Positions 1,654 through 59,318 of a stretch of DNA of 64,000 bases are shown here, in pieces (the first letter of the stretch is position 1; the number at the start of each line of letters is the position of its first letter). Source of the DNA: Alphaproteobacteria bacterium. Lineage in GTDB: Bacteria > Pseudomonadota > Alphaproteobacteria > Micropepsales > Micropepsaceae. Made by a program: the position numbers and the translations under genes. The notes beneath the pieces are model-generated. The model searched no databases and had not been told where the DNA came from. It saw only the letters and a program-made list of their open reading frames with translations. Where the stretch lies: the NCBI GenBank assembly GCA_947473475.1, contig CANJBZ010000001.1:62001-126000 (forward strand), given 5' to 3'.

Positions 1654-4020
1654 TCAAGCTCCTTGCGCCCGCGCGGCGGTGATTAATTCCAGCACTCTGT
1701 ACGGAAACAGTGGCACCTGTGTAATGCGTACGCCGAATGGTTCAAGCGCATTCTCGACCGCCGAAATGATGGCCGCGGCGGAGGGAATTACCCCGGCTTC
1801 GCCCGCCCCTTTGACGCCCAGCGGATTCAGTGGCGAGGGCGCGCTCGTATAGAAGCTCTCAATGGTGGGCACTTCGGTCGAACTGGGCAGCAGGTAATCG
1901 GCAAAGGTCGTGGTGGTCGGCTGGCCGCCTTTGTCATAGCCCATATATTCGTAGAGCGCGTTGCCGATGCCATGGGCGATGCCGCCGCGCGTTTGCCCGT
2001 CCACGATCATAGGGTTCACCTGCACGCCGTGATCGTGCTGGGCCACATAGCGAAGAATGCGGACCTGGCCGGTTTCAATGTCCACCTCGACTTCGACGAC
2101 ATGGCAGGCATTGGCGTACGCCAGTTGATCGACGCGAAAGGCGGCGCTCGCTTCCAAGCCGGGATCGAACCCCGGCGGAAAGGCATAGCCCGGCCCGCCG
2201 CGTAGCAGGCGCGCAATTTCACCAAGCGATATGGCGCGGTCGGGCGTGGCTTTCATCCGCACGGCGCCATCGGCCAATTCCAGTTCGTCGGGTTTGGCTT
2301 GCATCAGCATGCCGGCCATCGCTTTGGCTTTGCGGCCCACCTCACGTGCGGCGAGCATTACGGAATTTCCGGCGGTCACGGTTTGGCGACTGGCGAAACC
2401 GCCGAGCCCAACCGGCACGGCGGCAGAATCGCCCGCGACAACGCTCACATCGTTTGGCGACACACCCAATTCGGACGCTGCGATTTGCGCCAACGCCGTC
2501 GCCAAGCCCTGTCCCATCGCGGATGCGCCCGTCAGCACGGAGACGCGTCCGGCGCCACTGACGCGCACAAGCCCCATCTCGAATGGCCCGCGCCCAGTGC
2601 CCTTCAGCCCGTGCGCCAGACCGATGCCGAGATAGCGCCCCCCTTTGCGCGCTTCGCTCTGGCGGCGGGGAAAATCACCCCAATCGGCGCGTTCCATCAC
2701 TTGCGCCTGCGTGCCCGGATAGTCGCCGCTGTCATAGAGAATGGGCGCGCCGGAACGCGCTTTCAGCGGGCTCTCATAGGGCATTTTGTCAGCTGGGATG
2801 AGATTGCGCCGGCGGATTTCGTCGCGGGCAATGCCCACCTCGTGCGCCGCTTTGTCGAGCAGGCGTTCCATGGCGAACGCCGCTTGCGGATAGCCCGCGC
2901 CGCGCACTGACGACACAGGCACCTTGTTGGTATGCGCCACCGCCACATCCATCGCGAGCGCAGGAACATGATACGGACCGGGCACAGCGGACGCGGAATT
3001 GTACGGTAGGTTCACATCCTGCAGCGCATACGCGCCCAAATCGTGGATCAGCCGGCCGCGTACCGCGAGAATGCATGCGCTTTCGTCCAGCGCCAATTCC
3101 AGCGTCCAGTACTGATCGCGCTCCTGCACGGCGGAGATAAAATGCTCGCGCCGGTCTTCCACCCATTTTAGCGACCGCTTGAGCAGCTTCGAGGCGGCAA
3201 CGATGGCGACATCCTCGGGGTACACGCACAGCTTGGGACCGAAGCCGCCGCCGATGTCGGGCGCGGTGACGCGAAAGCGGTTCTCGTCGATTTTCACAAA
3301 GGCGGAAATGTTCTGGTGCAGATCGTGCGCCTTTTGGGTCGATGCCCAATAGGTGATGCCATCGGCGCCCGGCTGATATTCGGCGACGCCCCCGCGGCCT
3401 TCCAGCGAATGCGCGCCGCCACGGTGTTGATAAAAATCTTCCTTGGTGACGTGCGCTGCGTTTCGGAACGCCGCGTCCACATCGCCATAGGCGACGCGAA
3501 AGGTGCTGACCACATTGGACGACAAATCGCGCCGCGCAAGCACCGAACCTGCCACAGCAGCATCGCGCGCGTCGGCAATCGCAGGCAACGGATCGTAATC
3601 GATATCGACGAGCGCCGCCGCATCTTCCGCGATATAGCGGCTGCTCGCGGCGACCAGCGCGACGGGTTCGCCGACAAACGCGGTTTCGCCGCTGGACAGC
3701 GGATAGGGCCACATATTCTCGCGCGGTTTTCCGCCTTGGCCCGGTTCGCGCACCATGCGCCGCTTGTGCAGCACGGGCGCCAAATCGTCCAAGGTCAGGA
3801 CGGCATAAACGCCGGGCAAAGCCCGCGCCACGCTCGCATCGATGCTGCGAATGGCGGCATGCGGGTGCGGGCTGCGCACAAAGGCAACATGCAGCAGGCC
3901 CGGTATTCTTATGTCATCGATAAAGCGTCCGTTGCCGCACAGCAGCGGTGCATCTTCCAGGCGGCGAAAGCGCGTGCCGATGCGGCCGTCGCGCGCGGGT
4001 TCCAAATGATGCGTGGTCAA
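1654..4020 (-). CDS. Xanthine dehydrogenase/CoxL-family molybdopterin-binding subunit
   Basis: 788 aa large subunit of a molybdenum hydroxylase. The N-terminus has the a/b hammerhead (RLEDAPLLCGNGRFIDD). The molybdopterin-binding part contains GGGFGPKL and, near the C-terminus, the catalytic glutamate (about Glu741) in GVKGAGEAG. Such enzymes hydroxylate N-heteroaromatics, aldehydes or aromatic rings using water. The start is a TTG overlapping the TGA of the upstream receptor gene as TTGA, which suggests coupling. No [2Fe-2S] or FAD subunit gene is in the window, although the family normally needs them. Confidence 0.9.
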   Translation of the reverse strand: MTTHHLEPARDGRIGTRFRRLEDAPLLCGNGRFIDDIRIPGLLHVAFVRSPHPHAAIRSIDASVARALPGVYAVLTLDDLAPVLHKRRMVREPGQGGKPRENMWPYPLSSGETAFVGEPVALVAASSRYIAEDAAALVDIDYDPLPAIADARDAAVAGSVLARRDLSSNVVSTFRVAYGDVDAAFRNAAHVTKEDFYQHRGGAHSLEGRGGVAEYQPGADGITYWASTQKAHDLHQNISAFVKIDENRFRVTAPDIGGGFGPKLCVYPEDVAIVAASKLLKRSLKWVEDRREHFISAVQERDQYWTLELALDESACILAVRGRLIHDLGAYALQDVNLPYNSASAVPGPYHVPALAMDVAVAHTNKVPVSSVRGAGYPQAAFAMERLLDKAAHEVGIARDEIRRRNLIPADKMPYESPLKARSGAPILYDSGDYPGTQAQVMERADWGDFPRRQSEARKGGRYLGIGLAHGLKGTGRGPFEMGLVRVSGAGRVSVLTGASAMGQGLATALAQIAASELGVSPNDVSVVAGDSAAVPVGLGGFASRQTVTAGNSVMLAAREVGRKAKAMAGMLMQAKPDELELADGAVRMKATPDRAISLGEIARLLRGGPGYAFPPGFDPGLEASAAFRVDQLAYANACHVVEVEVDIETGQVRILRYVAQHDHGVQVNPMIVDGQTRGGIAHGIGNALYEYMGYDKGGQPTTTTFADYLLPSSTEVPTIESFYTSAPSPLNPLGVKGAGEAGVIPSAAAIISAVENALEPFGVRITQVPLFPYRVLELITAARAQGA

Positions 4021-32295: not shown

Positions 32296-35157
32296 TTATT
32301 CGGCCGCTACTTTGGGATCGCCGATACGCAGCGCCTTTTCCTTGAAGTCGGAATATTCTTCCTGCCATTCCGACGAGCGATTGGTGGGGCGGATTTCGAC
32401 AGCGGTGACTTTGTATTCCGGGCAGCCCGTGGCCCAGTCGCTGTTCTCCGTCGTCACCACATTGGCGCCCGATTCCGGGAAGTGGAACGTAGTGTAGACG
32501 ACGCCCGGCTGCATGCGCTCGGAAACGATCGCTGTCATGGAGGTTTCGCCGGCCCGCGAGATCACCGCCACATGGTCGCCGTTGCGGATGCCGCGAAATT
32601 CGGCGTCATGGGGATGAATTTCCAGCACGTCCTGCTGATGCCAGATGCTGTTGTCGGTACGCCGCGTCTGCGCTCCCACATTGTATTGGGAGAGGATGCG
32701 GCCCGTGGTCAGGATCAGCGGGAAGCGGTGGGTCGTCCGCTCTTCCGTCGGCACGTATTCGGTCAGCTCCATCTTGCCCTTGCCGCGGGCGAAGCCGTTG
32801 ATGTGCATGATCGGCGAACCGTCCGGCACCGTGTCGTTGCAGGGCCATTGCACGCTGCCGACCTTGTCGAGGAAGTCGTAAGAGACGTTGCGGAAACCCA
32901 AAGTCAAACGCGCGATCTCGTCCATGATTTCGGAGGGATGCGTGTAGTTCATCTTGTAGCCGAGCGCTTCGGAAAGCTTCATCGTCACTTCCCAATCGGC
33001 CAAGCCCGGCGCCGGCGGAACTGCCTTGCGCACGCGATTGATGCGGCGCTCGGCATTCGTGAAGGTGCCGTCTTTTTCCAGGAAGGATGAGCCCGGCAGA
33101 AACACATGCGCGTACAGCGCGGTCTCATTCAGGAACAAGTCCTGAACCACGACGCATTCCATGGAGGAGAGGGCAGCCTGGACATGCTTGGTGTTGGGGT
33201 CGGACTGCGCGATGTCTTCGCCCTGGACGTAAATGCCCATGAACGTTTTATCGATCGCCGAGTCGAACATGTTCGGGATACGCAAACCCGGCTCGGGATC
33301 GAGCTTTACGCCCCAATCGTTTTCAAACAGCAGGCGTGTGGAGTCGTCGGAGACATGGCGATAGCCGGCATATTCGTGCGGGAACGAGCCCATGTCGCAA
33401 GCGCCCTGCACATTGTTCTGACCGCGCAGCGGATTCACGCCCACGCCACGCCGGCCGAGCATGCCGCACAGCATCGCCAGATTGGCGATGCCCATCACCA
33501 TGGTCGAACCTTGGCTGTGTTCGGTGACGCCGAGGCCGTAATAGATGGCTGAGTTGGGACCCTTTGCGAACAGGCGTGCCGCGGCGCGCACGTCGGCAGC
33601 GGGCACGCCGGTAATCTTTTCCATCGCCTCCGGCGAATTCACGGGGCGGCGGATGAAGTCGGCCCATGTCCTAAAGTCGTCTGTATCGACGCGTTCGTCG
33701 ATGAATTTCTGATTTTGCAGGTTTTCGGTGAGGATCGTATGCGCGAGGGCATTGATCATCGCGACGTTGGTGCCGGGTTTCAGCGGCAGATGGTACTGCG
33801 CCTCGACGTGGGGCGTGCGTACGAGATCGATGCGGCGCGGATCGATGACAATGAGTTTGGCCCCTTCGCGCAGGCGCTTCTTCATGCGCGAAGCAAACAC
33901 GGGATGTGCGTCTGTCGGGTTGGCGCCGCAGACAAGCATGACATCGGCGTCGGTGACCGAGTCGAAATCCTGCGTGCCGGCGGAGGTGCCGAAGGCCGTA
34001 GCGAGGCCATAGCCCGTCGGTGAATGGCAAACGCGCGCGCAGGTGTCGACATTGTTGTTGTGGAAAGCCGCGCGGATCATCTTCTGCACGAGGTAGGTTT
34101 CCTCGTTCGTGCAGCGCGACGATGTGATGCCGCCAATGGAGCCGCGACCATATTTCTGCTGGATGCGCTTGAACTCGGAGGCGGCGTAATTGATCGCTTC
34201 GTCCCAGCTCACTTCGTTCCAGGGCTCGGTGATCGACTTGCGGATCATCGGCTTGGTGATGCGTTCTTTGTGCGAGGCATAGCCCCAGGCGAAACGGCCC
34301 TTCACGCAGGAATGGCCGTGATTGGCTTTGCCGTCTTTGTAAGGCGTCATGCGGACAACGCGGTTGCCTTGCAGCTCTGCCTCGAACGAACAGCCCACGC
34401 CGCAATAGGCGCAGGTGGTGATGACCGAGCGTTCCGGCGTGCCGTGCTTGATGACGGACTTTTCCATCAGCGTCGCGGTCGGGCAGGCCTGCACGCAGGC
34501 GCCGCAGGAGACGCATTCCGAATCCAGGAAGTCCTGGTTCATGCCCGCCGACACGTGCGAGGCAAAGCCGCGCTCGTCGATGGTCAGCGCAAAGGTGCCT
34601 TGCACTTCTTCGCACGCGCGCACGCAGCGCGAGCAGACGATGCACTTGGACGGATCGAAGGTGAAATAGGGATTGGATTCGTCTTTGGCTTGGCCGAGAT
34701 GGTTCGCGCCATCATAGCCGTAGCGCACTTCGCGCAAGCCGACCGCGCCCGCCATGTCCTGCAATTCGCAATCGCCATTGGCGGCGCAGGTCAAGCAGTC
34801 CAGCGGGTGATCGCTGATGTAAAGTTCCATCACGCCGCGGCGAAGCTTCGCCAGCCGGTCGTTCTGGGTCCACACCTTCAGGCCGTTTTCGGCCAGCGTC
34901 GTGCAGGAGGCGGGTGTGCCGCGGCGGCCATCGATTTCAACCAGGCAGAGGCGGCACGAACCGAATGCCTCCAGACTGTCGGTGGCGCAGAGCTTAGGCA
35001 CCTGAATGCCGGCCAGCGATGCCGCACGCATGAGCGAGGTGCCCGCCGGGACTGTGACCTCAATGCCGTCGATTTCCAGCGTCACCGTTTGGGTGCTGGT
35101 CCGCTCCGGGGTACCCCGGTCTGTCATCGTGCGATCGATGTCGGTGTGAACGGTCAT
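32296..35157 (-). CDS. fdsA: NAD-dependent formate dehydrogenase alpha subunit
   Basis: 953 aa catalytic subunit. In order: [2Fe-2S] ligands Cys57, Cys68, Cys71 and Cys85; a His117/Cys121/Cys124/Cys130 cluster; two [4Fe-4S] ferredoxin sites (Cys172-175-178-182 and Cys215-218-221-225); the [4Fe-4S] beside molybdenum (Cys249, 252, 256, 284); and the molybdenum ligand Cys377 in ARVCHSPTGYG. A cysteine, not selenocysteine, is used. It binds bis-MGD and oxidises formate to CO2 in the cytoplasm. It is in operon fdsG-B-A-D. Confidence 0.95.
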   Translation of the reverse strand: MTVHTDIDRTMTDRGTPERTSTQTVTLEIDGIEVTVPAGTSLMRAASLAGIQVPKLCATDSLEAFGSCRLCLVEIDGRRGTPASCTTLAENGLKVWTQNDRLAKLRRGVMELYISDHPLDCLTCAANGDCELQDMAGAVGLREVRYGYDGANHLGQAKDESNPYFTFDPSKCIVCSRCVRACEEVQGTFALTIDERGFASHVSAGMNQDFLDSECVSCGACVQACPTATLMEKSVIKHGTPERSVITTCAYCGVGCSFEAELQGNRVVRMTPYKDGKANHGHSCVKGRFAWGYASHKERITKPMIRKSITEPWNEVSWDEAINYAASEFKRIQQKYGRGSIGGITSSRCTNEETYLVQKMIRAAFHNNNVDTCARVCHSPTGYGLATAFGTSAGTQDFDSVTDADVMLVCGANPTDAHPVFASRMKKRLREGAKLIVIDPRRIDLVRTPHVEAQYHLPLKPGTNVAMINALAHTILTENLQNQKFIDERVDTDDFRTWADFIRRPVNSPEAMEKITGVPAADVRAAARLFAKGPNSAIYYGLGVTEHSQGSTMVMGIANLAMLCGMLGRRGVGVNPLRGQNNVQGACDMGSFPHEYAGYRHVSDDSTRLLFENDWGVKLDPEPGLRIPNMFDSAIDKTFMGIYVQGEDIAQSDPNTKHVQAALSSMECVVVQDLFLNETALYAHVFLPGSSFLEKDGTFTNAERRINRVRKAVPPAPGLADWEVTMKLSEALGYKMNYTHPSEIMDEIARLTLGFRNVSYDFLDKVGSVQWPCNDTVPDGSPIMHINGFARGKGKMELTEYVPTEERTTHRFPLILTTGRILSQYNVGAQTRRTDNSIWHQQDVLEIHPHDAEFRGIRNGDHVAVISRAGETSMTAIVSERMQPGVVYTTFHFPESGANVVTTENSDWATGCPEYKVTAVEIRPTNRSSEWQEEYSDFKEKALRIGDPKVAAE

Positions 35158-35234
35158 GATTGCCTCTTAGCTCTCCTGCCCAACTCCAACGCCAACGCTG
35201 GGGGCAGGGGATCTCTCAGTTTAAACGCATCATA

Positions 35235-36788
35235 TCATTCGGCCGCGGCGCGTTCACGCACACGGTCGAAATCCTCGGGAAAGTGTTCCATGGCGCTCAT
35301 AACGGGCATGGGTGTCAGCCCGCCCAGCGCGCACAGCGAACCATCCCGCATGGTTTCGCAAAGGTCACGCACGAGATCGATGTTTTGCACGACGTTCTCG
35401 CCGTCGATGATCTTGTCGATCGTTTCCGCGCCACGCGTCGATCCAATCCGGCAGGGCGTGCACTTGCCGCAGGATTCGATAGCGCAGAAGTGGAAGGCAA
35501 AGCGCGCTTGTTTGGCCAAGTCCACGGTGTCGTCGAACACCACGATGCCGCCATGGCCGACCATGCCGCCCTTGGCCGCGAAGGCCTCGTAATCGAGGGG
35601 CACGTCGAACAGGCTTTCGGGCCAATAGGCGCCAAGCGGCCCGCCCACCTGTACCGCACGCACCGGGCGCCCGGAATAGGTGCCGCCGCCGTAATCGTAG
35701 ATCAGTTCGCGCAAGGTGAGACCGAACGCACGCTCGATCAGACCGCCTTGCTTGATGTTGCCCGCAAGCTGGATGGGCATCGTGCCGCGCGAGCGGCCCA
35801 TGCCGAAATCCTTATAAACGGCCGCGCCTTCCGCGAGGATGAAGGGCACGCTTGCAAGCGAAACCAGATTGTTGACGACGGTCGGTTTGCCGAACAGGCC
35901 TTCGATGGCCGGCAGCGGCGGCTTGAAGCGAATCTGGCCGCGTTTGCCTTCCAGGCTTTCCAGCAGCGAGGTTTCTTCGCCGCAGATATAGGCGCCCGCG
36001 CCGAGCCGCGCTTCCATGTCGAACGCATGGTTGGAGCCGAGCACATTCGTTCCGAGCAGGCCGCCTTTGCGCGCAATTTCGATGGCGCGATTCATCTGCG
36101 CAAAAGCGTGCGGATATTCCGAGCGAATATAGACGTAGCCTTTGGTCGCGCCGACCGCGACACCGGCAATCGCCATGCCTTCGATCAACGCGAACGGATC
36201 GCCTTCCATGATCATGCGATCGGAGAAGGTGCCGGAATCGCCTTCGTCGGCGTTGCAGACGATGTATTTCTGATCGGCTTCGCAGCCCAGCACCGTCTTC
36301 CACTTGATGCCCGTCGGGAAGCCTGCGCCGCCGCGGCCGCGCAGGCCCGAATCGGTGACTTCCTTGACGATGTCGGCGGGCGTCATCTGGAGCGCGCGGC
36401 GAAGGCCCTTCAGCCCGTCATGGGCTTCGTAATCCGCAAGGCTCAGCGGATCGGTGATGCCGCAGCGCTTGAACGTCAGACGCTGCTGGTTTTTCAAATA
36501 AGGGATTTCGTCGACCGGGCCGAGATTGAGCGCGTGTGTTTTGCCCGCGAGCCCGTCGTCGAAAATGCTTTTCACGTCGGACGGCTTCACCGGCCCATAG
36601 CCGATACGGCCGTGGCCGGTTTCGACTTCCAGCAGCGGTTCAAGCCACAGGAGCCCGCGCGAGCCATTGCGGACAAGCACGGCGTCAAGCTTGCGGGCGG
36701 CGATTTCATTGGCCACGGCCGCGGCGACCGCATTGGCGCCCATGGAAAGGGCGGCGGCATCGCACGGAACGAAGATGCGCATGGTCAT
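35235..36788 (-). CDS. fdsB: NAD-dependent formate dehydrogenase beta subunit (NuoF-like)
   Basis: 517 aa. An N-terminal thioredoxin-like part is followed by the NuoF-like NADH/FMN domain (GLRGRGGAGFPTGIKW, CNADEGDSGTFSDR) and the [4Fe-4S] motif SCGKCTPCRIGSTRG. It carries FMN and passes electrons from the iron-sulfur chain to NAD+. Its ATG overlaps the fdsG stop (ATGA). The N-terminal extension over NuoF is normal for FdsB. Confidence 0.95.
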   Translation of the reverse strand: MTMRIFVPCDAAALSMGANAVAAAVANEIAARKLDAVLVRNGSRGLLWLEPLLEVETGHGRIGYGPVKPSDVKSIFDDGLAGKTHALNLGPVDEIPYLKNQQRLTFKRCGITDPLSLADYEAHDGLKGLRRALQMTPADIVKEVTDSGLRGRGGAGFPTGIKWKTVLGCEADQKYIVCNADEGDSGTFSDRMIMEGDPFALIEGMAIAGVAVGATKGYVYIRSEYPHAFAQMNRAIEIARKGGLLGTNVLGSNHAFDMEARLGAGAYICGEETSLLESLEGKRGQIRFKPPLPAIEGLFGKPTVVNNLVSLASVPFILAEGAAVYKDFGMGRSRGTMPIQLAGNIKQGGLIERAFGLTLRELIYDYGGGTYSGRPVRAVQVGGPLGAYWPESLFDVPLDYEAFAAKGGMVGHGGIVVFDDTVDLAKQARFAFHFCAIESCGKCTPCRIGSTRGAETIDKIIDGENVVQNIDLVRDLCETMRDGSLCALGGLTPMPVMSAMEHFPEDFDRVRERAAAE

Positions 36789-37273
36789 GAGCGCACACCC
36801 ACGAGTTCGAGAATTTTGCTCTCACTGGCACGGCCGTGCAGTTCGCCGTCAATCAGAACAGCTGGCGACAGGGCGCAATTGCCGAGGCAAAACACCTCTT
36901 CCAGCGTAATCTGGCGATCCGGCGTGGTTTCACCGAAGGCAATGCCCAGCGCCCGTTCAAGCCGTGCGGCCAGGGCCTCGCTGCCCATGCTCTGGCAGGC
37001 CTCGGCCCGGCAGACTTTGATCACGTGCCGTCCGGCCGGTTCCCGGCGGAAGTCGTGATAAAAACTCACAACCCCCTGCACGTCGGCGCGGGTCAGATTC
37101 AGAACGTCTGCCACCAAGACGATGGCTTCGTTGTTGATATGGCCGAATCGCTCAACGAAGGCGTGGAGGATCGGCAAAAGCGGACCTTCCATATCCTTGT
37201 GGCGGACGGCAATTTCACGGGCGGCCTCCGCGTCCCAAGGACTGGCGAATGCCGCGCGGTCTTTTAAAAGCAC
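36785..37273 (-). CDS. fdsG: NAD-dependent formate dehydrogenase gamma subunit (NuoE-like)
   Basis: 162 aa, thioredoxin-like [2Fe-2S] protein of the NuoE family. The cluster ligands are Cys88 and Cys93 (KVCRAEACQSMG) and Cys129 and Cys133 (VFCLGNCALSP). It begins with GTG behind CGGAG and is the first gene of the fds operon. The 99-base gap to fdhD must hold its promoter or read-through comes from fdhD. Confidence 0.94.
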   Translation of the reverse strand: MLLKDRAAFASPWDAEAAREIAVRHKDMEGPLLPILHAFVERFGHINNEAIVLVADVLNLTRADVQGVVSFYHDFRREPAGRHVIKVCRAEACQSMGSEALAARLERALGIAFGETTPDRQITLEEVFCLGNCALSPAVLIDGELHGRASESKILELVGVRS

Positions 37274-37372
37274 GTGATGCTCCGAGCAGGGCGAAACACA
37301 GTCCTATAGCGCAAATATAGTGCTTGTCCCACACGAAATCCCGGTTCCATCCGATTAGGAATAACGGTGACC

Positions 37373-38236
37373 TCAGAACGACTTAACCATTATTTCGCAG
37401 GGGTTATTGAAGACCAGAACCGAATCGGACCGTGCCAGTGCAACAAGCGTAAGGTTGGCGCCCTTGGCCATGGTGACGGCAAGCTCCGTCGGGGCGGAAA
37501 TGGTGACCAGCACGGATATGCGGGCGAGCACCGCTTTTTGCACCAGCTCATAGGAGCAGCGGCTGGTCAAAAGTGCGAAACCCGCATCCGGTTCAATGGC
37601 TTGGCGGGCCATATGGCCGATCACTTTGTCGAATGCGTTATGGCGGCCGACGTCCTCCCGAACCGCAAGGATGTCCCCATTGGTGGCGCAGAAGGAGGCG
37701 GCATGGACCGCTCCGGTCTGGCGATTAAGGCTTTGGCGGTCCGGTAAGGCGGCAAGCGCGCGGAACAGCGCTGCTTCCGAGATGGCCGGCGCGCTTGTCA
37801 GGGGCTGCAGCTCCGGCAGCGCTTCTTCGATGGTTGTTAACCCGCAAATGCCGCAGCCCGATTGGCCCGCCAGGGACCGGCGGCGCTCGGCGAGGCGGGC
37901 GGAATGTTCCCTTTCCAGCCGGACGTCCATGCCGATGCCGCGCGCGCCGTAGCGAATGTCGATGCGGGCGATTTCTTGAGGGTTCGCGATGATTCGCTCG
38001 GACAAGGCAAAGCCGACCGCGAAGTCTTCGAGATCGGCCGGGGTCAGCATCATCACGGCGTAAGGCTGGCCGTCGAACTCCAGGGCGACGGGCACTTCAT
38101 TGGCCAGAACGCGCGTACCCGCTTCGGATGTATTCGGGGTGACTCGCGCAGCCCGATGTTCATGCGCGACCGCATAGGCGGACGGCACGTCCTCGTCGCT
38201 AGCGGGAGCGGCGGCCTTCAGGATCGGGGCTGTCAT
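37373..38236 (-). CDS. fdhD: Formate dehydrogenase sulfur-carrier protein FdhD
   Basis: 287 aa sulfurtransferase. The persulfide-carrying motif is GCGICG (Cys128 and Cys131). Also typical are ALEFDGQPYAVMMLTPADLE and VREDVGRHNAFDKVIGHM. FdhD takes sulfur from a cysteine desulfurase and sulfurates bis-MGD before it is inserted into FdsA. It is upstream of and on the same strand as fdsG, so cofactor maturation and enzyme are expressed together. Confidence 0.94.
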   Translation of the reverse strand: MTAPILKAAAPASDEDVPSAYAVAHEHRAARVTPNTSEAGTRVLANEVPVALEFDGQPYAVMMLTPADLEDFAVGFALSERIIANPQEIARIDIRYGARGIGMDVRLEREHSARLAERRRSLAGQSGCGICGLTTIEEALPELQPLTSAPAISEAALFRALAALPDRQSLNRQTGAVHAASFCATNGDILAVREDVGRHNAFDKVIGHMARQAIEPDAGFALLTSRCSYELVQKAVLARISVLVTISAPTELAVTMAKGANLTLVALARSDSVLVFNNPCEIMVKSF

Positions 38237-45105: not shown

Positions 45106-45747
45106 CTACCCTCCCTTGAGGGAGGGGCGGGTTAGGGCGAGAAGCGATTCGGCGTGCGCGAGATCGTTGGGCGAATTGATGTTGAAAAACGGATCGACCG
45201 GGTCTGAAGGAAACCGGACGCGGACGTTCCGAAAGCGGGCGATGAAGTCGTCCATTTTGCGGGAGCCTTGATCCGTCAGAACGGATTCCGAACTGACCGC
45301 CAGCGATTTATTCCAAAGGGCAAAAACGGGGTGATGCCGTTCACCGCTTTGCGAGACAGCAACTTCAGCGTTTTCGCGCTCTGCTGCCGCTTGAAGGTCG
45401 CCAGTCATCGTCGTTGGAAAAAACGGGCAATCGCACGCGAATGTCGCAAGCCATTTGGCGCTGGGACGGTTTTCGCGAATCCAGTCCAGCCCGGCGAGCA
45501 CACCGGCCAGCGGTCCCTGAAAGCCGCCGACGCGGTCGGCGATCACCGGCAATCCGAATTGCGCGAACCGCGCCGGATCGCCGTTCGCGTTGACAATCAA
45601 TTCCGAGACTTGCGGCTTGGCGCGGGAAATAGCGCAGGCGATCAACGTCTCGCCGCCTAACGTCAGCAGCGCCTTATCAACGCCGCCCATTCGCCGGCCC
45701 TGACCGCCCGCGAGAATAAGTCCGATAATGTTTTGATGCGTGTTCAA
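45106..45747 (-). CDS. mobA: Molybdenum cofactor guanylyltransferase
   Basis: 213 aa. The nucleotide-binding signature is LILAGGQGRRMGGVDKALLT, and FACDCPFFP carries the metal-binding Asp. It joins GMP to molybdopterin to make MGD. It is last in the oxalate operon. Fds-type formate dehydrogenase needs bis-MGD, so mobA links this operon to the fds genes 8 kb away. The last residues (RPSLKGG) and the stop region derive from a palindromic repeat at 45109-45126. Confidence 0.93.
   Translation of the reverse strand: MNTHQNIIGLILAGGQGRRMGGVDKALLTLGGETLIACAISRAKPQVSELIVNANGDPARFAQFGLPVIADRVGGFQGPLAGVLAGLDWIRENRPSAKWLATFACDCPFFPTTMTGDLQAAAERENAEVAVSQSGERHHPVFALWNKSLAVSSESVLTDQGSRKMDDFIARFRNVRVRFPSDPVDPFFNINSPNDLAHAESLLALTRPSLKGG
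45109..45126. repeat. Palindrome encoding the mobA C-terminus
   Basis: CCCTCCCTTGAGGGAGGG is a perfect 18-base palindrome lying just inside the mobA stop codon, so it supplies the final residues of the protein. Related CCTCCC-type repeats occur elsewhere in the window. Confidence 0.7.
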
Positions 45748-45843: not shown

Positions 45844-47541
45844 TCAAAACAATCCGACGATTCTGCCGTCGGCGCCGATGTCGATGGCTTCCGCTGACGG
45901 AACCTTGGGCAGGCCCGGCATGGTCATGATCTCGCCGCAGATGGCGACCACGAATTCCGCGCCGGCCGACAGACGGACTTCGCGGACGTTGATGGTGTGA
46001 TCGACGGGGGCGCCCTTGGCGTCCGGGTTGGTGGAGAAGCTGTACTGCGTCTTCGCCACGCAAATCGGCGCTTTGCCATAGCCCATGGCTTCGAACGAGG
46101 TGAGTTGATCGCGCACCGACTTGTCGACCGAAATGTCCTTCGCGCGATAGATTTCCCGCGCGATGGTGCGGATTTTCTCGATCAGCGGCATGTCGTCGGG
46201 ATAGAGCATCTTTAGCTTGCTCTTGCCGCTGTCGCACACATTCACAACCGCACGGGCCACATCCGCCGCGCCTTCGCCGCCCATGGCCCAATGATCGGCC
46301 ATGTGGCATTCGACGCCGAGCTTCGCGCAAGCCGTCTTGACCAGATCGATTTCGGCAGCCGAGTCCGCAGAAAAACGGTTGATCGAAATCACCGGCTCCA
46401 GACCGAATTTGCGCGTGTTTTCGACGTGCCGCTGCAGGTTCGACATGCCGGCTTCGAGCGCCTTCAGGTCTTCCTTCTTCAGGTCTTCCTTCTTGACGCC
46501 GCCATGCATCTTCAGTGCACGGATGGTCGCGACCAGCACGGCGCAGGACGGCTCGATGCCGGCTTTGCGGCATTTGATGTCGAGGAACTTCTCGCCGCCG
46601 AGGTCGGCGCCGAATCCGGCTTCCGTCACGACGTAATCGGCAAGCTTCAGCGCGGTGGTGGTCGCCAGCACGGAATTGCAGCCATGGGCGATATTGGCGA
46701 ACGGACCGCCGTGGATGAACGCGGGCGTGCCTTCCAGCGTCTGCACGAGGTTTGGCGACAGCGCGTCTTTCAGCAGCGCGGTCATGGCGCCGTGCGCTTT
46801 CACGTCGCTTGCGCGCACCGGCTTACGGTCGCGGGTGTAGCCGATGATGATGTTGCCGAGGCGCTTCTTCAGGTCGTCCAGATCGGACGCCAGGCAGAAG
46901 ATCGCCATGACTTCGGACGCCACCGTGATGTCGAAGCCGTCTTCACGCGGGAAGCCGTTGGCGACACCGCCCAGCGAATTGACGATCGAACGCAGCGCGC
47001 GGTCGTTCATGTCGAGCACGCGGCGCCATGCGATGCGGCGCTGATCGAGGTTGAGCGAATTGCCCCAATAGATGTGGTTGTCGATCAGCGCGGCGAGCAG
47101 GTTGTTCGCCGAGGTGATGGCGTGGAAGTCGCCGGTAAAGTGCAGGTTGATGTCTTCCATCGGGACGACCTGGGCGTAACCGCCGCCGGCCGCGCCGCCC
47201 TTCATGCCGAACGAAGGCCCGAGCGAGGGTTCGCGCAGGCACAGCATCGCTTTCTTGCCGATGTGGTTCAGCGCGTCGGTGAGACCGACTGTCGTGGTAG
47301 TCTTGCCTTCACCGGCCGGTGTCGGCGTGATCGCCGACACCAGGATCAGTTTGCCGTTCGGCTTGTCTTTCAGCGACTTGATGTAGTCCATCGACACCTT
47401 GGCCTTGTAATGGCCATAGGGTTCGAGATTTTCCTCCGCGATGCCCAGCCGGTCGGCTGCGACTTTCATGATCGGCGTCATTTTCGCGGCTTGCGAAATT
47501 TCAATGTCGGATTTTGGAGTCTGATGCTGTGAAGCGGGCAT
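45844..47541 (-). CDS. fhs: Formate-tetrahydrofolate ligase
   Basis: 565 aa, normal length. The ATP-binding loop is [12 protein letters not shown] (residues 72-83). Also typical are [20 protein letters not shown] and the C-terminal [13 protein letters not shown]. It forms 10-formyl-THF from formate, THF and ATP in the cytoplasm. A five-residue tandem duplication ([10 protein letters not shown]) is visible. Encoded downstream of oxc and frc, it should assimilate formate from oxalate into one-carbon metabolism. Confidence 0.96.
46462..46491. repeat. 15-base tandem duplication inside fhs
   Basis: The unit CTTCAGGTCTTCCTT occurs twice in a row and is in frame, adding five residues to FHS. It looks like replication slippage. 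Confidence 0.8.
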
Positions 47542-47565: not shown

Positions 47566-48495
47566 TCAGCCGAGGCGCGTGCCTTGGGCGAGATTGACGG
47601 AGGCGATGAAATCGGACGCGGCCATCTTGCCGCCATCGGCCGGTTTCACGCGGGTAACTTTGACGCGGCCATCGGCGCAGACGACCGAGAAACCGTCCGC
47701 CGAGACTTCGACGATTTCGCCGGTCTTGCCGCCGATATCTTTCGGCGTTTTGGCCGGCAGCGGTTTGGCTTCCAGAATTTGCACCACTTTGCCGTCTACT
47801 TTCGTCCACGCGCCGGGAGCCGGACTGCAGCCGCGGATCAAACGGTCGATCTGACGCAAGGGTTTGCCCCAGTCGATCATCGCGTTGTCGGCTTTGCACA
47901 TGCCTTCATAGGTCGCCAGATTCTCGTCTTGCTTGATACGCGGCGCATTGCCGGCCTTAACGAGATCGATCGATTCCATCATGGCTTCGACGCCCATCGG
48001 GAACAGCCGGTCGAAATAAACCGAGCCGAGCGTATCGGTGTCACTGATCGTGGTGCGCTTTTGCAGCAGCACGTCGCCGGTGTCCAAACCGTTATCCGGC
48101 CAGAAGATGGAGAGCCCGGTTTCCGCCTCGCCATTGATGATCGGCCAGTTGATGGCCGACGCGCCACGTCCCGCCGGCAACAGCGAAGGATGATATTGGA
48201 TCGAGCCGTGTGTCGGGATGTTCAGAAATTCTTCCGGCACGAACAGCGTCACAAACGCCATGACTTGCAGGTCCGGCGCCAGAAGGCGGAATTCTTCCCA
48301 GACTTCCGGCTTGCGATAGGACGCCGGCTGCACGACCGGAATGCCGGCTGCCAGGGCCGCTTCCTTCAATGGATCGGCCTTTGCGCCCGGCTTTTCCGGC
48401 GCCACGTAAACCGCAACCACGTTCTCTCCGCGCCGGATGAGCGCTTCGAGCACCGCTTTGCCGAAGGCCTGCTGGCCATGAACGACGATGCGCAT
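47566..48495 (-). CDS. Formyltransferase-fold protein, like the 10-formyl-THF hydrolase domain of ALDH1L1
   Basis: 309 aa with an N-terminal formyltransferase fold and a C-terminal Fmt_C-like domain. The core blocks HGSIQYHPSLLPAGRGASAI, LSIFWPDNGLDTGDVLLQ and ATYEGMCKADNAMIDW match the N-terminal hydrolase domain of mammalian ALDH1L1 better than Met-tRNA formyltransferase. His102 and Asp138 are the likely catalytic pair; the Asn of Fmt is Gln100 here. It lies between frc and fhs. Release of formate from, or formyl transfer to, folate is inferred. It is probably often misnamed Fmt. Confidence 0.85.
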   Translation of the reverse strand: MRIVVHGQQAFGKAVLEALIRRGENVVAVYVAPEKPGAKADPLKEAALAAGIPVVQPASYRKPEVWEEFRLLAPDLQVMAFVTLFVPEEFLNIPTHGSIQYHPSLLPAGRGASAINWPIINGEAETGLSIFWPDNGLDTGDVLLQKRTTISDTDTLGSVYFDRLFPMGVEAMMESIDLVKAGNAPRIKQDENLATYEGMCKADNAMIDWGKPLRQIDRLIRGCSPAPGAWTKVDGKVVQILEAKPLPAKTPKDIGGKTGEIVEVSADGFSVVCADGRVKVTRVKPADGGKMAASDFIASVNLAQGTRLG

Positions 48496-48545
48496 AATGT
48501 ATCCTTCCCCTCACTATTGAATTCGTCCACCGTCGCTCGTCATCC

Positions 48546-48580
48546 CGAGGCGCCCGGCGCGTGCTACGCGCCGGGCCTCG
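48546..48580. repeat. Palindromic element between frc and the formyltransferase-like gene
   Basis: A 9-bp stem CCCGGCGCG-TGCTA-CGCGCCGGG (48553-48575) flanked by CGAGG/CCTCG. It lies in the 108-base gap after frc. It is a REP-like element that could attenuate transcription into the folate genes. Confidence 0.65.
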
Positions 48581-48603
48581 AAGGACGCACGGTGGGCTAA
48601 CAA

Positions 48604-50151
48604 CTACGCCGCGCGCGCCGGCTTTTCCGGCGGCGTGATGGCGCCCGACGTTTTGATCTCAGCGACTTCCGCGTCGGTGTACCCGAGCACCTGCGTGAGG
48701 ATTTCCTCGGTGTGTTCGCCCAACAGCGGCGAGCGCTGCACCTCGCACGGCGAGTCGAACAGCTTGATCGGATTACCGACAGTCAGATAGGCGCCGCGGC
48801 CCGGATGGTCGACTTCGACCACCGTGCCGGTGGCACGCAGGGATTCCTCCGCGGCGATTTCCTTCATCGACAAAATCGGCCCGACCGGAATGTCCTGCTG
48901 GTTGCAAATGTCCATGACCTCGAATTTGTCTTTGGTCATCGTCCATTCTTCGATAACGCCGAAGATATATTTCAGACGAGGCAGACGTGCCGGCGGCGTG
49001 GCGAAGTCCGGATCGGTTTTCCATTCCGGCTTACCGATCAGATCGCAAATTTGGGCCCAAACCGGCGCTTGCGTGATGAAATAGATGTAGGCGTCCGGAT
49101 CGGTTTCCCAGCCCTTGCACTTGAGCAGCCATGCCGGCTGGCCACCGCCCGAGTCATTGCCCGCGCGTGGAACCGATTCGCCGAAGGGAATACCTTCGCC
49201 ATATTGGCTGTATTCGGTGAGTGGGCCGTGCTTCAGGCGTTGCTGATCGCGCAATTTCACGCGGCAAAGATTGAGCACGCCGTCCTGCATGGCGCAAAGG
49301 ACGCGCTGACCGCGGCCGGTACGATTGCGCTGATAGAGCGCCGTCACAATGCCGAGCGCCAGATGCAAGCCGGTGCCGGAGTCGCCGATCTGCGCGCCGG
49401 TTACCAGCGGCGGACCTTCGCGGAATCCCGTCGTCGATGCCGAACCGCCAGCGCACTGCGCGATGTTCTCGTACACCTTGCAATCTTCATACGGGCCAGG
49501 GCCGAAGCCTTTGACCGATGCGTAGATCATGCGGGGGTTGAGTTCGTGCACGCGCTCAAAGGTCAGGCCCATGCGGTCCAGCGCGCCGGGCGCGAAATTT
49601 TCCACCAGAACGTCGCAGGTTTTCACCAGACGCTCGAGGATTTCCATGCCCTTCTTGTTCTTGGAGTCGATGGTGATGGAGCGCTTGTTGCCGTTCAGCA
49701 TCGTGAAATAGAGGCTGTCCTGCCCCTTGATGTCGCGAAGCTGGGTGCGAGTAATGTCGCCGACGCCGGGACGTTCCACCTTGATGCAATCAGCGCCCAT
49801 GTATGCGAGCAACTGCGTGCAGGTCGGACCCGATTGCACATGCGTGAAGTCCAGAATCTTCACGCCATCGAGCGCCTTACCGGCTCCGCCCCACGCCGCC
49901 GTCGACGGCGCCGGATAGGCGCTGCCGTTTCCGTTCGCCTTCTTGGCGGCGGATTTTTTCGCCGCTGCTTTTTTGGCCGGCGCTTTGACCGAACGGGCCT
50001 TCGCTTTCGGCGCCGTTTTCTTGGCGGCGGCCTTTTTCGCGACCGGCTTCTTCGCAACGGTCTTCTTGGCGATGACCTTCTTCACGACCGGCTTTTTCGC
50101 TGCGGTCTTCTTCGGTGTGGATTTCGTCTTTGCTTTCTTCTTCGTAGCCAT
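48604..50151 (-). CDS. frc: Formyl-CoA:oxalate CoA-transferase with lysine-rich N-terminal tail
   Basis: 515 aa, about 87 longer than Oxalobacter FRC. Residues 1-75 are an Ala/Lys/Pro tail (repeats of AAKKxxAKK) like histone H1, then a short linker. The transferase core from about residue 92 matches FRC closely ([44 protein letters not shown]). The catalytic Asp fits Asp257 in [10 protein letters not shown] (Asp169 of Oxalobacter FRC). It moves CoA from formyl-CoA to oxalate. The tail's role is unknown. Confidence 0.93.
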
Positions 50152-50166
50152 GACTGGAGCCCCTCC

Positions 50167-51900
50167 TTATTTCTTTTTCTTCAGCGCGCTTTGCGGGTTG
50201 AGATTGCCGATACGGCCGCTTTCGCTGCCGGCGGCGGGATCGATGACGGCATTGATGAGCGTCGGCTTGCCGCTGTCCATCGCGGCATTGACCGCACGCT
50301 TCAGTTCATCCGGTGTTGTTGCATTGACGCCAACGCCGCCGAACGCCTCGATCATCTTGTCGTAGCGCGCACCTTTCACGAACACGGTCGGCGCCGGATC
50401 GCTGCTCGCATTGTTGACGTCGGTGCCGCGGTAGATGCCGTCATTGTTGAAGATGACGATACAAACCGGAAGGTTGTAGCGGCAGATGGTTTCGACCTCC
50501 ATGCCGGAGAAGCCGAACGCCGAGTCGCCTTCGATGCAGAGCACGGGGTTGCCCGTTTCGACGCTTGCCGCGATGGCGTAGCCCATGCCGATACCCATGA
50601 TGCCCCAGGTGCCGACGTCGATGCGCTTGCGGGGCTTGTACATGTCGATGACGCCGCGCGTCAGGTCGAGCGCGTTGGCGCCTTCATTGACGAGGAGCGC
50701 ATCGGGCCGTTCCTTGATGATGGTGCGCAGAACGCCCAACGCACCGTGGTAATCCATCGGGCTGTTGTTGTTCATCAGGCGGGGCGCCATCTTCGCGACG
50801 TTCTCATCGCGCTTGGACGAGACCGTTGCCATCCAGTCCGCCGGCGCCGCCGGCCAATCGCTGCCCATCGCCGCGAGCAGCGCGGAAACGGTGGAACCGA
50901 TGTCGCCAACCACGGGGGCGGCGATCTCGATGTTGGAGTCCATTTCCTTGGGCTCGATATCGATCTGGATGAACTTCTTGGAGTGCGGCTCGCCCCAGCT
51001 CTTGCCTTTGCCGTGCGACAGCAGCCAGTTCAAACGCGCGCCGATCAGCATGACGACGTCGGATTGCGCCAGCACGGTCGAACGCGCAGCGCCCGCGCAT
51101 TGCGGATGCGTGTCGGGAAGCAGACCCTTGGCCATGCTCATGGGCAGGAACGGCACGCCGGACTTTTCGACAAGTGCGCGGATGGCATCGTCGGCCTGCG
51201 CATAGGCTGCGCCTTTGCCCAGAATGATGAGCGGCTTCTTGGCGCTTTTCAGGACGGCGAGCGCACGTTGAATGGATTCGGGGGACGGAATTTGCGCCGG
51301 CGCCGGGTCGATCACTTTTACCAGCGACTTGCGGCCGGCTTCGGCATCCATGACCTGGCCGAACAGTTTCGCCGGAAGGTCGAGATAGACGCCACCCGGA
51401 CGGCCCGAAACGGCAGCGCGAATGGCACGCGCGACGCCGATGCCGATATCGGCCGCGTGCAGCACGCGATAGGCGGCCTTACACAGCGGCTTGGCGATCG
51501 CGAGCTGATCCATTTCCTCATAATCGCCCTGTTGCAGGTCGACGACCTCGCGCTCGGAAGAGCCGGAGATCAGGATCATCGGAAAGCAGTTGGTGGTGGC
51601 GTGCGCCAGAGCGGTCAGGCCGTTCAAAAAGCCCGGCGCCGACACGGTCAGGCAGATGCCCGGCTTTTTGGTGAGATATCCGGCGATCGACGCCGCGTAA
51701 CCGGCGTTCTGTTCGTGACGGAAAGACAGCACGCGAATGCCTTCGGCTTGCGCCATACGGCCAAAATCGGTGACCGGGATTCCGGGGACGCCATAGATCG
51801 TCTCGACCCCGTTCATTTTCAACGCGTCGATGATGAGATGGAACCCATCGGTCATCTCCCGTTCGGCGCCTGCATCCGTACTTTTTAATTCTGCGGACAT
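50167..51900 (-). CDS. oxc: Oxalyl-CoA decarboxylase
   Basis: 577 aa thiamine-diphosphate enzyme of normal length. The N-terminal PYR domain has [20 protein letters not shown] and the activating Glu63 ([11 protein letters not shown]). The C-terminal PP domain holds [19 protein letters not shown] and FNNDGIYRG for Mg-ThDP. It converts oxalyl-CoA to formyl-CoA and CO2. It starts 28 bases after the gntR-type gene and is followed 15 bases later by frc, its partner in the oxalate cycle. The C-terminus ends in four lysines. Confidence 0.95.
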
Positions 51901-51928: not shown

Positions 51929-52696
51929 TCAATCTAAATAGTCGGCATGCCGCGCCACGTGCTGGGCCAAACCCATTGCGTGCTCGCGGGTGAGCTGTTC
52001 GGCTCGCTCGGAGTTGCGCGCTTCCAAGGCTTCGATGATGTTCATGTGATCGTGGATGGATCTATCGGCGCGGTCCATCTCGCCGATGGTTTTGCGCCGG
52101 ATCATGCGCATATGGGTGAACAGATTTTCGGCCATGTCGATGAGCACGCGGTTGTGGCTCATGCGGATGATGGCCTGATGAAACTCGATATTCACTTCGG
52201 AATACTCGTCCAGCTTGGCCTGTACTTCGCCACCTTCGAAAGTGGTGAACATGCGGCGCAATGCGGCAACTTCGTCGGGCGTCGCATTTTCCGTCGCCAG
52301 CCGCGCGGCCATGCCTTCAAGCGCCGCCCACGCGGTGATCATTTCGATGGCTTCGCGTTTGGTCTTGCGCGCTATGTAAATGCCACGCCTCGGGACCGAG
52401 CGGACAAACCCCTCACGTTCCAGTTGCGCCAAAGCCTCCCGCACTGGCGTACGGCTGACCCCGAATTCACCGGCAAGCTTACGCTCATCCAGCCGGATGT
52501 CGTCCCGGCTTCGGTAGATATCCATGGAGACGATGAGGTTCTTCAGCCGGGCATAGGCTTGGTTTTTGAAGCTCGGCAGGGTTGCGATCGGGGCCAAAGC
52601 CTGCGTCGATCCGAAACCATAAGAGGTTGAAGCTGAATGGTTTTCAGCAGAAACCACGACCGAAGCCGTGTGCAATTGGGGATCGCGAGAATTCAT
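51929..52696 (-). CDS. GntR-family regulator (FadR/FCD type) of the oxalate operon
   Basis: 255 aa from the ATG at 52696; a longer frame upstream to 52888 is cysteine/arginine-rich and runs through the promoter region. The winged helix is at about residues 44-110 ([34 protein letters not shown]) and the FCD ligand-binding domain at 116-250 ([24 protein letters not shown]). FCD domains often bind organic acids. It is first in the oxc-frc operon and divergent from the oxalate carrier, so oxalate, formate or a CoA ester is the probable effector. Confidence 0.88.
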
Positions 52697-52698
52697 TC

Positions 52699-52715
52699 TG
52701 GTATACGGTATGCCA
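52699..52715. promoter_or_regulatory. Candidate GntR/FCD operator
   Basis: TGGTATACGGTATGCCA is an imperfect palindrome (TGGyATACsGTATrCCA) of the TGGTATACCA style common for FCD regulators. It lies two bases before the gntR-type start, within the 196-base intergenic region shared with the divergent carrier gene. It suggests autoregulation, possibly with control of the carrier. The remaining intergenic sequence shows no other gene. Confidence 0.55.
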
Positions 52716-52892
52716 GAGCCCTTTGGCCAAAAGCAAACGGAATCTGCCGGCCATCTTCGCCCTCGATGTGAGTGCCTGCATAATGCGAGGGACTGACAGC
52801 AGCGTGTACATGACAAGCAAGACGGCATTCGTGTAAGGGTGTAAAAAATTGCAAGTGCCGCAAAAGACGGCGTTGGGAGCATAGACAAACAG

Positions 52893-54185
52893 ATGTCGGT
52901 TCAGGCTTCGGCGCAGACAGCGCCTACCAATCGCTGGTTTCAGCTCGTTGTCGGCATCATCTGCATGGTGATGATCGCCAATCTCCAGTACGGCTGGACT
53001 TATTTCGTCGAGCCTATGGACGACGCGAATCATTGGGGCCGCGCCGGAATTCAGATCGCTTTCAGCCTTTTCGTCCTCACTGAAACTTGGCTTATCCCGA
53101 TCGAGGGCTGGTTCGTCGATAAATTTGGGCCGCGCATCGTGGTCATCGCGGGCGGCATCATTGTTGCTCTCGGCTGGAGTTTGAACTCCATCGCATCGTC
53201 ACTTCCGATGCTTTACATGGGTGCGATCGTTTCGGGTATTGGCGCAGGTTGCGTGTACGGCACCTGTGTGGGCAACGCGCTGAAGTGGTTCGCCGACCGG
53301 CGCGGGTTAGCGGCCGGACTGACCGCCGGCGGGTTCGGCGCGGGCGCAGCGGCCACAGTTGTTCCGATCATCAGCTCCATAGAGGCGTATGGCTATAAGG
53401 CGACGTTTCTCTATTTTGGCCTTGCTCAGGGCCTCATCATTCTTTGCCTGGCGCCGTTCCTTAAGGCCCCGGCCCCAGGCCAAGTCCAGGCACCGGCCAA
53501 GAAGGGCATAAGGCAGTCGTCGCGCAGCTTCACGCCCGGCGAGATGCTGCGCACGCCGCTGTTCTGGGTGCTGTATTTGATGTTTACCATGGTGGCGGCA
53601 GGCGGCCTGATGGCGACGGCGCAACTTGGCTCGATTGCCCGCGACTTCGGGCTGGACAAGATGCAGATTGTCTTCCTGGGCATCGCGGGCACGACGCTGG
53701 TGCTGGCCGGCATCTTCGACAACATCCTCAACGGTGTGGCGCGCCCCTTTTTCGGTTGGGTTTCGGACAATATCGGCCGCGAGCCGACGATGTTCATCGC
53801 CTTCGCTGGCGGTGCGGCGGCGATGTGGGGATTGACCGCGTTCGGCCATGAGCCGACCGCCTTCATTCTGCTGTTCGGCGCGATCTATTTCACCTGGGGC
53901 GAGATCTACTCTCTGTTCCCGGCGACCTGTACTGACGCGTTCGGTCCGAAATTTGCGGCGACCAACGCTGGTCTTCTGTATACGGCAAAGGGAACGGCTG
54001 CAATTTTCGGGGGACCGCTCGCTGCCTATCTGGTGGCGGCCAGCGGGACTTGGAGTTCGGTGTTCTGGGTGGCCGCGGTGATGGACCTGCTGGCGGCGCT
54101 GATGGCCATCATTGTCCTGCGTCCTATGCGGGCATCGCATTTGGCTTCTACGGTCGCGGCGGCTCAGCCGGCTCCGGCGGAATAA
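52893..54185 (+). CDS. OxlT-like oxalate/formate antiporter (MFS, OFA family)
   Basis: 430 aa with 12 membrane segments. Resemblance to Oxalobacter OxlT is strong: NRWFQLVVGIICMVMIANLQ, FVDKFGPRI, WFADRRGLAAGLTAGGFGAG, GEMLRTPLFWVLYLMF and TWGEIYSLFPATCTDAFG. It should bring in oxalate in exchange for formate across the inner membrane. It is divergent from the gntR-oxc-frc operon with 196 bases between starts, which fits a common regulator. Confidence 0.88.
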   Translation: MSVQASAQTAPTNRWFQLVVGIICMVMIANLQYGWTYFVEPMDDANHWGRAGIQIAFSLFVLTETWLIPIEGWFVDKFGPRIVVIAGGIIVALGWSLNSIASSLPMLYMGAIVSGIGAGCVYGTCVGNALKWFADRRGLAAGLTAGGFGAGAAATVVPIISSIEAYGYKATFLYFGLAQGLIILCLAPFLKAPAPGQVQAPAKKGIRQSSRSFTPGEMLRTPLFWVLYLMFTMVAAGGLMATAQLGSIARDFGLDKMQIVFLGIAGTTLVLAGIFDNILNGVARPFFGWVSDNIGREPTMFIAFAGGAAAMWGLTAFGHEPTAFILLFGAIYFTWGEIYSLFPATCTDAFGPKFAATNAGLLYTAKGTAAIFGGPLAAYLVAASGTWSSVFWVAAVMDLLAALMAIIVLRPMRASHLASTVAAAQPAPAE

Positions 54186-58931: not shown

Positions 58932-58967
58932 AATTTAAATTTGCCAAACCCTCAGGAGAAAACCTTC

Positions 58968-59318
<351 letters not shown>

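Follow-up and report, generated by a model that had tools for sequence, protein, structure and literature searches.

Formate is found in two activated forms, formyl-CoA and 10-formyltetrahydrofolate (10-formyl-THF). The locus described here raises the question of what a stand-alone formyltransferase gene is doing among genes of formyl-CoA metabolism. The gene, for which the name fdhN is coined here, lies in a 64,000-nucleotide stretch of a contig from a soil-type alphaproteobacterium (the window), where it is sited between frc and fhs (Table 1).

A formyltransferase gene in an oxalate catabolic operon

In an NCBIfam scan the products of oxc, frc and the divergently transcribed transporter gene oxlT each scored above the equivalog cut-off, which identifies the locus as an Oxc/Frc oxalate catabolic operon. 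Between oxc and frc lie 15 bp, between frc and fdhN 108 bp and between fdhN and fhs 24 bp, and the cassette is headed by a gene for a GntR-family regulator, the real start of which is probably downstream of the listed TTG. The fhs gene is the sole formate-tetrahydrofolate ligase (FTHFS) gene in the host genome. The 108 bp gap (48496-48603) contains a GC-rich palindrome-like stretch, GAGGCGCCCGGCGCG...CGCGCCGGGCCTC, which may be a repeat element or a hairpin.

The formate dehydrogenase encoded elsewhere in the window, together with FdhD, is an oxidative sink for the formate of the oxalate operon, and mobA could plausibly serve this enzyme. Another molybdenum enzyme is represented by the large subunit of a xanthine-oxidase-family protein (1654-4020, minus strand); it is nearest to the aerobic CO-dehydrogenase-like group and is probably not a true CO dehydrogenase, as its score of 681 bits is under the cut-off of 950. 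The interval 58941-59318 (plus strand) is predicted to encode a small protein whose Gly-x-y repeats, GNTGNTGNTG..., resemble those of collagen.

The Frc protein has an additional Lys/Ala-rich N-terminal tail of about 90 residues (49885-50151, minus strand). In the relatives L004-L083 the corresponding tails are of about 45-90 residues, are rich in Lys, Ala and Pro, begin MAKKK or MATRKK and resemble histone-H1-type tails. They are found in most Frc of the Xanthobacteraceae/Reyranella-type group, with varying sequence and length and a constant composition, and are missing in most other Frc, including those of Rhodobacterales, SAR11-like bacteria and gammaproteobacteria.

Table 1. Genes of the oxalate locus and of formate dehydrogenase in the window
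Feature	Position	Strand	Remarks
fdhN (name coined here)	47566..48495	(-)	Stand-alone ALDH1L1/HypX-type formyltransferase, 309 aa; catalytic-type residues H102, S104, R110, D138, Y196; Gln100 at the Fmt Asn106 position
fhs	45844..47541	(-)	Formate-tetrahydrofolate ligase; NCBIfam NF010030 936 bits (cut-off 652)
frc	48604..50151	(-)	Formyl-CoA:oxalate CoA-transferase; TIGR03253 696 bits (cut-off 504), residues 92-505
oxc	50167..51900	(-)	Oxalyl-CoA decarboxylase (ThDP), formyl-CoA source; TIGR03254 1032 bits (cut-off 739)
GntR-family regulator	51929..52888	(-)	Conserved cassette head
oxlT-type	52893..54185	(+)	Oxalate/formate antiporter, divergent; TIGR04259 586 bits (cut-off 335)
mobA	45106..45747	(-)	Molybdenum cofactor guanylyltransferase; TIGR02665 209 bits; 96 bp after fhs
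Formate dehydrogenase region	32296..38236	(-)	~7-9 kb from the oxalate operon
Formate dehydrogenase alpha	32296-35157	(-)	TIGR01591 898 bits
NuoF-type subunit	35235-36788	(-)	Subunit of NAD-type formate dehydrogenase
FdhD	37373-38236	(-)	TIGR00129 188 bits

FdhN is a stand-alone subfamily distinct from Fmt

The fdhN reading frame is intact, running uninterrupted for 309 codons from an ATG start and filling exactly the interval given in Table 1. Its product matches Formyl_trans_N (PF00551, 107 bits) and Formyl_trans_C (PF02911, 79 bits) of Pfam, both over the gathering scores. The reading frame stops after PF02911, with fhs next, and there is neither a fused carrier or aldehyde dehydrogenase domain nor, in the Pfam search, an enoyl-CoA-hydratase-like C-terminal domain.

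The best matches in the PDB were the hydrolase domains of zebrafish, human and rat ALDH1L1 (207-214 bits), with lower scores for Fmt (164 bits at most), ArnA (118) and HypX (48). The ALDH1L1 domain (PDB 4qpd, 1s3i, 2bw0) is about 40% identical to FdhN, has the same fold and has the blocks HPSLLP..RGASAINW..FW.D.GLDTG in common with it; in contrast to FdhN, ALDH1L1 also has carrier and aldehyde dehydrogenase domains, and FdhN is a bacterial protein found in formyl-CoA operons. Against the Fmt equivalog model TIGR00460 FdhN scored 158.6 bits, under the cut-off of 201.5, and three distant FdhN relatives scored 132-165 bits, compared with 248 bits for the host's own Fmt. The latter keeps the Asn, has a def-like motif nearby and is one of three PF00551 genes in the host genome (3.87 Mb, 66 contigs, 99% complete), the others being fdhN and a gene for a PurN-like protein. 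The NCBIfam scan of FdhN gave no match to the PurU model TIGR00655 at E <= 0.001, and a search of the host genome with the PurU model likewise gave no match.

The roles of the key residues of the ALDH1L1 hydrolase domain have been described (PMC4388273), and His106, Ser108, Arg114, Asp142, Tyr200 and Phe89 all have counterparts in FdhN (H102, S104, R110, D138, Y196 and F85). The first five are invariant in 118/118 FdhN sequences, and F85 is invariant in a 27-row alignment. The position of the Fmt Asn is occupied in FdhN by Gln (112/118) or Cys (6/118), in ALDH1L1 by Ile (Ile104) and in the HypX of C. necator by Val, whereas Asn is found in 10/10 Fmt, ArnA and PurU sequences. The ALDH1L1 variant I104N retains <10% activity (PMC4388273). 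Moreover, Pro103, Ser113 and Tyr160 are common to FdhN, ALDH1L1 and HypX and are different in most Fmt. Fmt itself has the fold of FdhN and the same domain order, PF00551 followed by PF02911, and PurU has the catalytic His and Asp of PF00551 in common with FdhN but retains the Asn.

The N-domain of HypX/HoxX (PDB 6j0p), a protein of [NiFe]-hydrogenase maturation for which the proposed partner is CoA, is only about 25% identical to FdhN; it resembles FdhN in the absent Asn, the catalytic Asp and the shared His-Pro, Ser, Trp and Tyr positions, and differs from it in having an enoyl-CoA-hydratase-like C-terminal domain. The fdhN cassette contains no hydrogenase genes.

Phylogenetic analysis with IQ-TREE split FdhN, the ALDH1L1 N-domain and the HypX N-domain from Fmt and ArnA, with support of 95/98.7 when PurU was included and of 100/100 when it was left out, whether one or two HypX sequences were used. 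Constraining ALDH1L1 with Fmt in the tree with PurU was rejected (p-AU 0.03). HypX forms a long branch, and its alternative placements inside the FdhN/ALDH1L1/HypX clade were not rejected. A 34% identical formyltransferase-like protein on a plasmid of Ensifer adhaerens (L189, 4001-4876, where the record carries no annotation) has the His-Pro and no Asn and yet falls outside the clade, so loss of the Asn alone is no proof of a thiol partner.

Together, these data bear out the initial annotation on several points: the blocks HPSLLP, GASAINW and FWPDNGLDTGD are present, at residues 102-107, 111-117 and 131-141; Gln100 is the residue at the Fmt Asn position; the protein is closer to the ALDH1L1 hydrolase domain than to Fmt by score (214 against 164 bits), residues and trees; and it is a stand-alone protein between frc and fhs, in an operon whose flanking genes exceed equivalog cut-offs. 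The phylogeny that it had called for, with Fmt, PurU, ArnA and ALDH1L1, does not group FdhN with housekeeping Fmt, and its caveat that another fmt gene might be absent from the genome falls away with the Fmt found here (TIGR00460, 248 bits). FdhN is an unnamed stand-alone bacterial subfamily of a known superfamily, mis-annotated as fmt.

It appears highly improbable that FdhN sits in the operon by chance as an additional formyltransferase for Met-tRNA or for some other amine acceptor. Its relatives are automatically annotated fmt, the fold is shared and, in Foldseek searches, Fmt structures follow close behind ALDH1L1; set against this are the score below the TIGR00460 cut-off, the position outside the Fmt clade, the replacement of the Asn in 118/118 sequences, the true Fmt elsewhere in the genome and the conserved synteny described below.

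An AlphaFold2 model of FdhN, made with 27 close relatives as input, has a pLDDT of 73 overall and of <50 at residues 102-148. The active site is not reliably modelled, and no active-site or CoA-docking argument is therefore built on the model. The Foldseek result obtained with this model, with the ALDH1L1 hydrolase domain first, is not discriminating.

The fdhN cassette is conserved

A scan of 84,980 species genomes gave 325 coding relatives of fdhN, and the best 80 of these 325 were kept for synteny. Among these best relatives frc adjoins fdhN in 79/80, and fhs follows fdhN in 76 of the 77 whose contig extends far enough; the gntR-oxc-frc-fdhN-fhs cassette recurs in ~80 species. Synteny conserved to this degree excludes a chance placement. 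A plasmid from Paracoccaceae has the same gene order, with an fdhN of 46% identity that is annotated fmt_2, and so do chromosomal loci at 49-50% identity. Where fdhN genes are not beside frc, their neighbourhoods appear unrelated and give no functional clue. The possibilities that fdhN is a duplicated copy of fmt, or a passenger gene with no link to its neighbours, were considered and rejected.

In three gammaproteobacteria (G512, G562 and G648) the order is oxc-frc-frc-fdhN, and in the first of these the stop codon of frc and the start codon of fdhN overlap. Fhs was not found in these genomes, two of which are single-contig and 100% complete. The Fhs-coupled route is therefore not universal, and the link to Fhs made in the initial annotation, although real in the window, is not general, as these Fhs-less genomes have fdhN beside oxc and frc. 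Their 10-formyl-THF may come from FolD.

The tight linkage to frc, with overlapping codons in one genome, would suit a non-catalytic FdhN, a subunit or regulator that binds folate and might sense 10-formyl-THF or partner Frc. The invariance of the catalytic residues in 118/118 sequences speaks against such a protein, which seems hardly credible.

In ten cassettes another ThDP enzyme, ~25-27% identical to Oxc, takes the position of oxc, and the accompanying frc is still 60-86% identical. Four examples of this enzyme were scanned and scored 341-358 bits with the 2-hydroxyacyl-CoA lyase model (cut-off 600) compared with 212-258 bits for Oxc models; the top NCBIfam match was a generic acetolactate-synthase model, also under its cut-off, and the best PDB match was an actinobacterial 2-hydroxyacyl-CoA lyase. 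The products of 2-hydroxyacyl-CoA lyase include formyl-CoA (PMC7176365), and the enzyme in the cassettes, here termed HACL-like, probably forms formyl-CoA as well. Three of the ten loci (L135-L137) are in 1.4-Mb genomes, which we guess to be SAR11-like, and some HACL-like loci contain a TctA-type transporter. These loci probably represent a pathway for some carboxylate yielding formyl-CoA, and the common denominator of fdhN loci is probably formyl-CoA, not oxalate or Fhs.

fdhN is associated with Oxc or the HACL-like enzyme across genomes

In a class sample of 385 genomes, fdhN (called at >=46% identity) was found in 34, Oxc (E <= 1e-150) in 26 and both in 20. Oxc was thus present in 20/34 fdhN genomes compared with 6/351 others (P=2e-19), or in 16/34 compared with 4/351 (P=1e-15) when only Oxc over the curated cut-off was counted; the counts share ancestry and the P values therefore overstate independence. 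The HACL-like enzyme is encoded by 12 of the 14 fdhN genomes that lack Oxc, within the cassette in six and elsewhere in the genome in the other six, and it was found in 0/22 tested genomes without fdhN. Strict Oxc or the HACL-like enzyme is present in 29/34 fdhN genomes of the class sample; of the remainder, three (G281, G288 and G359) have only a ~40% Oxc-like protein and two (G300 and G366) have neither enzyme. In a phylum sample, 6/6 further fdhN genomes have Oxc over the cut-off, so that for all 40 fdhN genomes the tally is 35 with Oxc or HACL-like enzyme, three with the weaker Oxc-like protein and two with neither. The association persists where the genes are non-adjacent. That fdhN keeps company with known or probable formyl-CoA-making enzymes in nearly every sampled genome that has it suggests that its product connects the CoA and folate one-carbon pools.

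The class sample also shows that fdhN and PurU never occur together in the 385 genomes, PurU being present in 0/34 fdhN genomes compared with 89/351 others (P=1.5e-4). This exclusion fits the replacement of a hydrolase, and may be of phylogenetic origin. On this reading FdhN would stand in for PurU: it would be a free-standing 10-formyl-THF hydrolase (EC 3.5.1.10), releasing formate so that THF can be used again. The nearest characterised relative is named a hydrolase domain, and the key His, Ser, Asp, Arg, Phe and Tyr are conserved. However, the isolated ALDH1L1 domain needs added thiol (PMC4388273), and the Asn kept by PurU is lost in FdhN. Moreover, a hydrolase does not account for the co-occurrence of fdhN with Oxc or the HACL-like enzyme, and formate release from folate beside Fhs, in an operon that produces formate, would be futile. 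A hydrolase role for FdhN is accordingly judged rather unlikely.

A proposed formyl exchange between folate and CoA

The two characterised relatives of FdhN both use a thiol. The isolated ALDH1L1 domain hydrolyses 10-formyl-THF only when 2-mercaptoethanol is added (PMC4388273), and in the full-length protein the thiol is thought to be supplied by the 4'-phosphopantetheine arm, to which the formyl group is passed (PMC8748788). Transfer of the formyl group from 10-formyl-THF to CoA by the HypX N-domain was proposed from structures (PMC6802093) and is described as biochemically shown (PMC12134894). With these clade precedents, and with the association with formyl-CoA enzymes, 10-formyl-THF/CoA exchange is the simplest reading for FdhN. 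The initial annotation had offered three roles, namely hydrolysis of 10-formyl-THF, a balance with Fhs in reverse, and formyl transfer between formyl-CoA and THF. The last appears to have the most support, from family, residues and genomic association alike, and in the light of HypX it would not be the wholly new reaction that it was taken to be; simple hydrolysis is less likely because the ALDH1L1 domain is thiol-dependent and the pathway already yields formate.

From the observed fold, clade, residues, synteny and genome-wide association we infer the CoA partner, the reversibility and the priming direction. FdhN would be a folate-dependent formyltransferase with a phosphopantetheine thiol, most likely that of free CoA, as second substrate, and together with Fhs it would prime the Oxc/Frc cycle, a proposal to which we give an even chance. 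The reaction would be 10-formyl-THF + CoA <=> formyl-CoA + THF, in which His102 and Asp138, held by Ser104, would activate the thiol for attack on the formyl carbon, a mechanism already put forward for the N-domains of ALDH1L1 and HypX.

Frc spends one formyl-CoA per oxalate activated, and so the cycle conserves CoA but needs starting and topping up. Fhs and FdhN would act as a two-step ATP-driven formyl-CoA synthase (formate + ATP + THF -> 10-formyl-THF -> formyl-CoA), the product of which would charge and top up the catalytic CoA pool for Frc and Oxc; with formyl-CoA in excess, a reverse run of FdhN would return the formyl group to folate. In E. coli an acetyl-CoA:oxalate CoA-transferase (ACOCT) is proposed to prime the Oxc/Frc cycle (PMC3720670). 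This protein and its chemistry are unrelated to FdhN, and the parallel would be one of role. The window cassette contains no close relative of YfdE; the host genome encodes eight other class III CoA-transferases, 31-38% identical to YfdE, and these could be alternative primers of the cycle.

Several observations count against exchange or priming. The CoA contacts of HypX are only partly matched: Gln15 aligns with FdhN Lys13 (114/118) and Arg131 with the invariant Phe161, and HypX anchors CoA mainly by the C-terminal domain that FdhN does not have. The exclusion of PurU fits a hydrolase too. Fhs is absent from the three gammaproteobacteria, two fdhN genomes are without Oxc or HACL-like enzyme, and three have only the ~40% Oxc-like protein.

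The same enzyme might also work in the opposite direction (formyl-CoA + THF -> 10-formyl-THF + CoA), draining oxalate-derived formyl groups into folate without ATP or feeding Fhs in reverse for ATP, and might then be a source of EC 3.1.2.10 activity. The clade and association evidence is the same as for priming, FdhN could be the entry of one-carbon units into folate in the Fhs-less genomes, and formyl-CoA hydrolase (EC 3.1.2.10) has been reported without a gene (PMC10192776). However, each formyl-CoA removed would need another CoA donor, or the Frc/Oxc cycle would halt, and none is encoded in the window cassette; furthermore, in each of the two biochemical precedents the formyl group moves from folate to a thiol. 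Draining is thus an unlikely main role, and if the exchange itself is right, priming is somewhat the more probable direction.

Significance

A literature search that reached little of the subscription literature found no description of fdhN in oxalate operons, and in the literature searched HypX was the only link between formyl-CoA and 10-formyl-THF. In a recent survey, formyl-CoA hydrolase and oxalate CoA-transferase are still entered as enzymes that lack a gene (PMC10192776). The data assembled here, genomic throughout, make a strong case for a role of FdhN in formyl-CoA metabolism, with a specific candidate reaction. In its widest form, which we consider an evenly balanced proposition, FdhN would link the activated one-carbon pools of CoA and folate as a free-standing formyl-CoA:tetrahydrofolate formyltransferase that works reversibly. 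Its partners would be Oxc and the HACL-like enzyme, and its hosts soil and SAR11-like alphaproteobacteria along with some gammaproteobacteria; it may account for the gene-less EC 3.1.2.10, and would come from the lineage that also gave the N-domains of ALDH1L1 and HypX.

If true, this would give an orphan activity a candidate gene, put right an 'fmt' annotation that is widespread and point to the bacterial lineage behind the ALDH1L1 hydrolase domain. In our judgement the enzyme would also be of use for synthetic formate assimilation, in which the supply and use of formyl-CoA are bottlenecks. For the bacteria themselves, it would show how degraders of oxalate and 2-hydroxyacids start and balance their CoA cycle.
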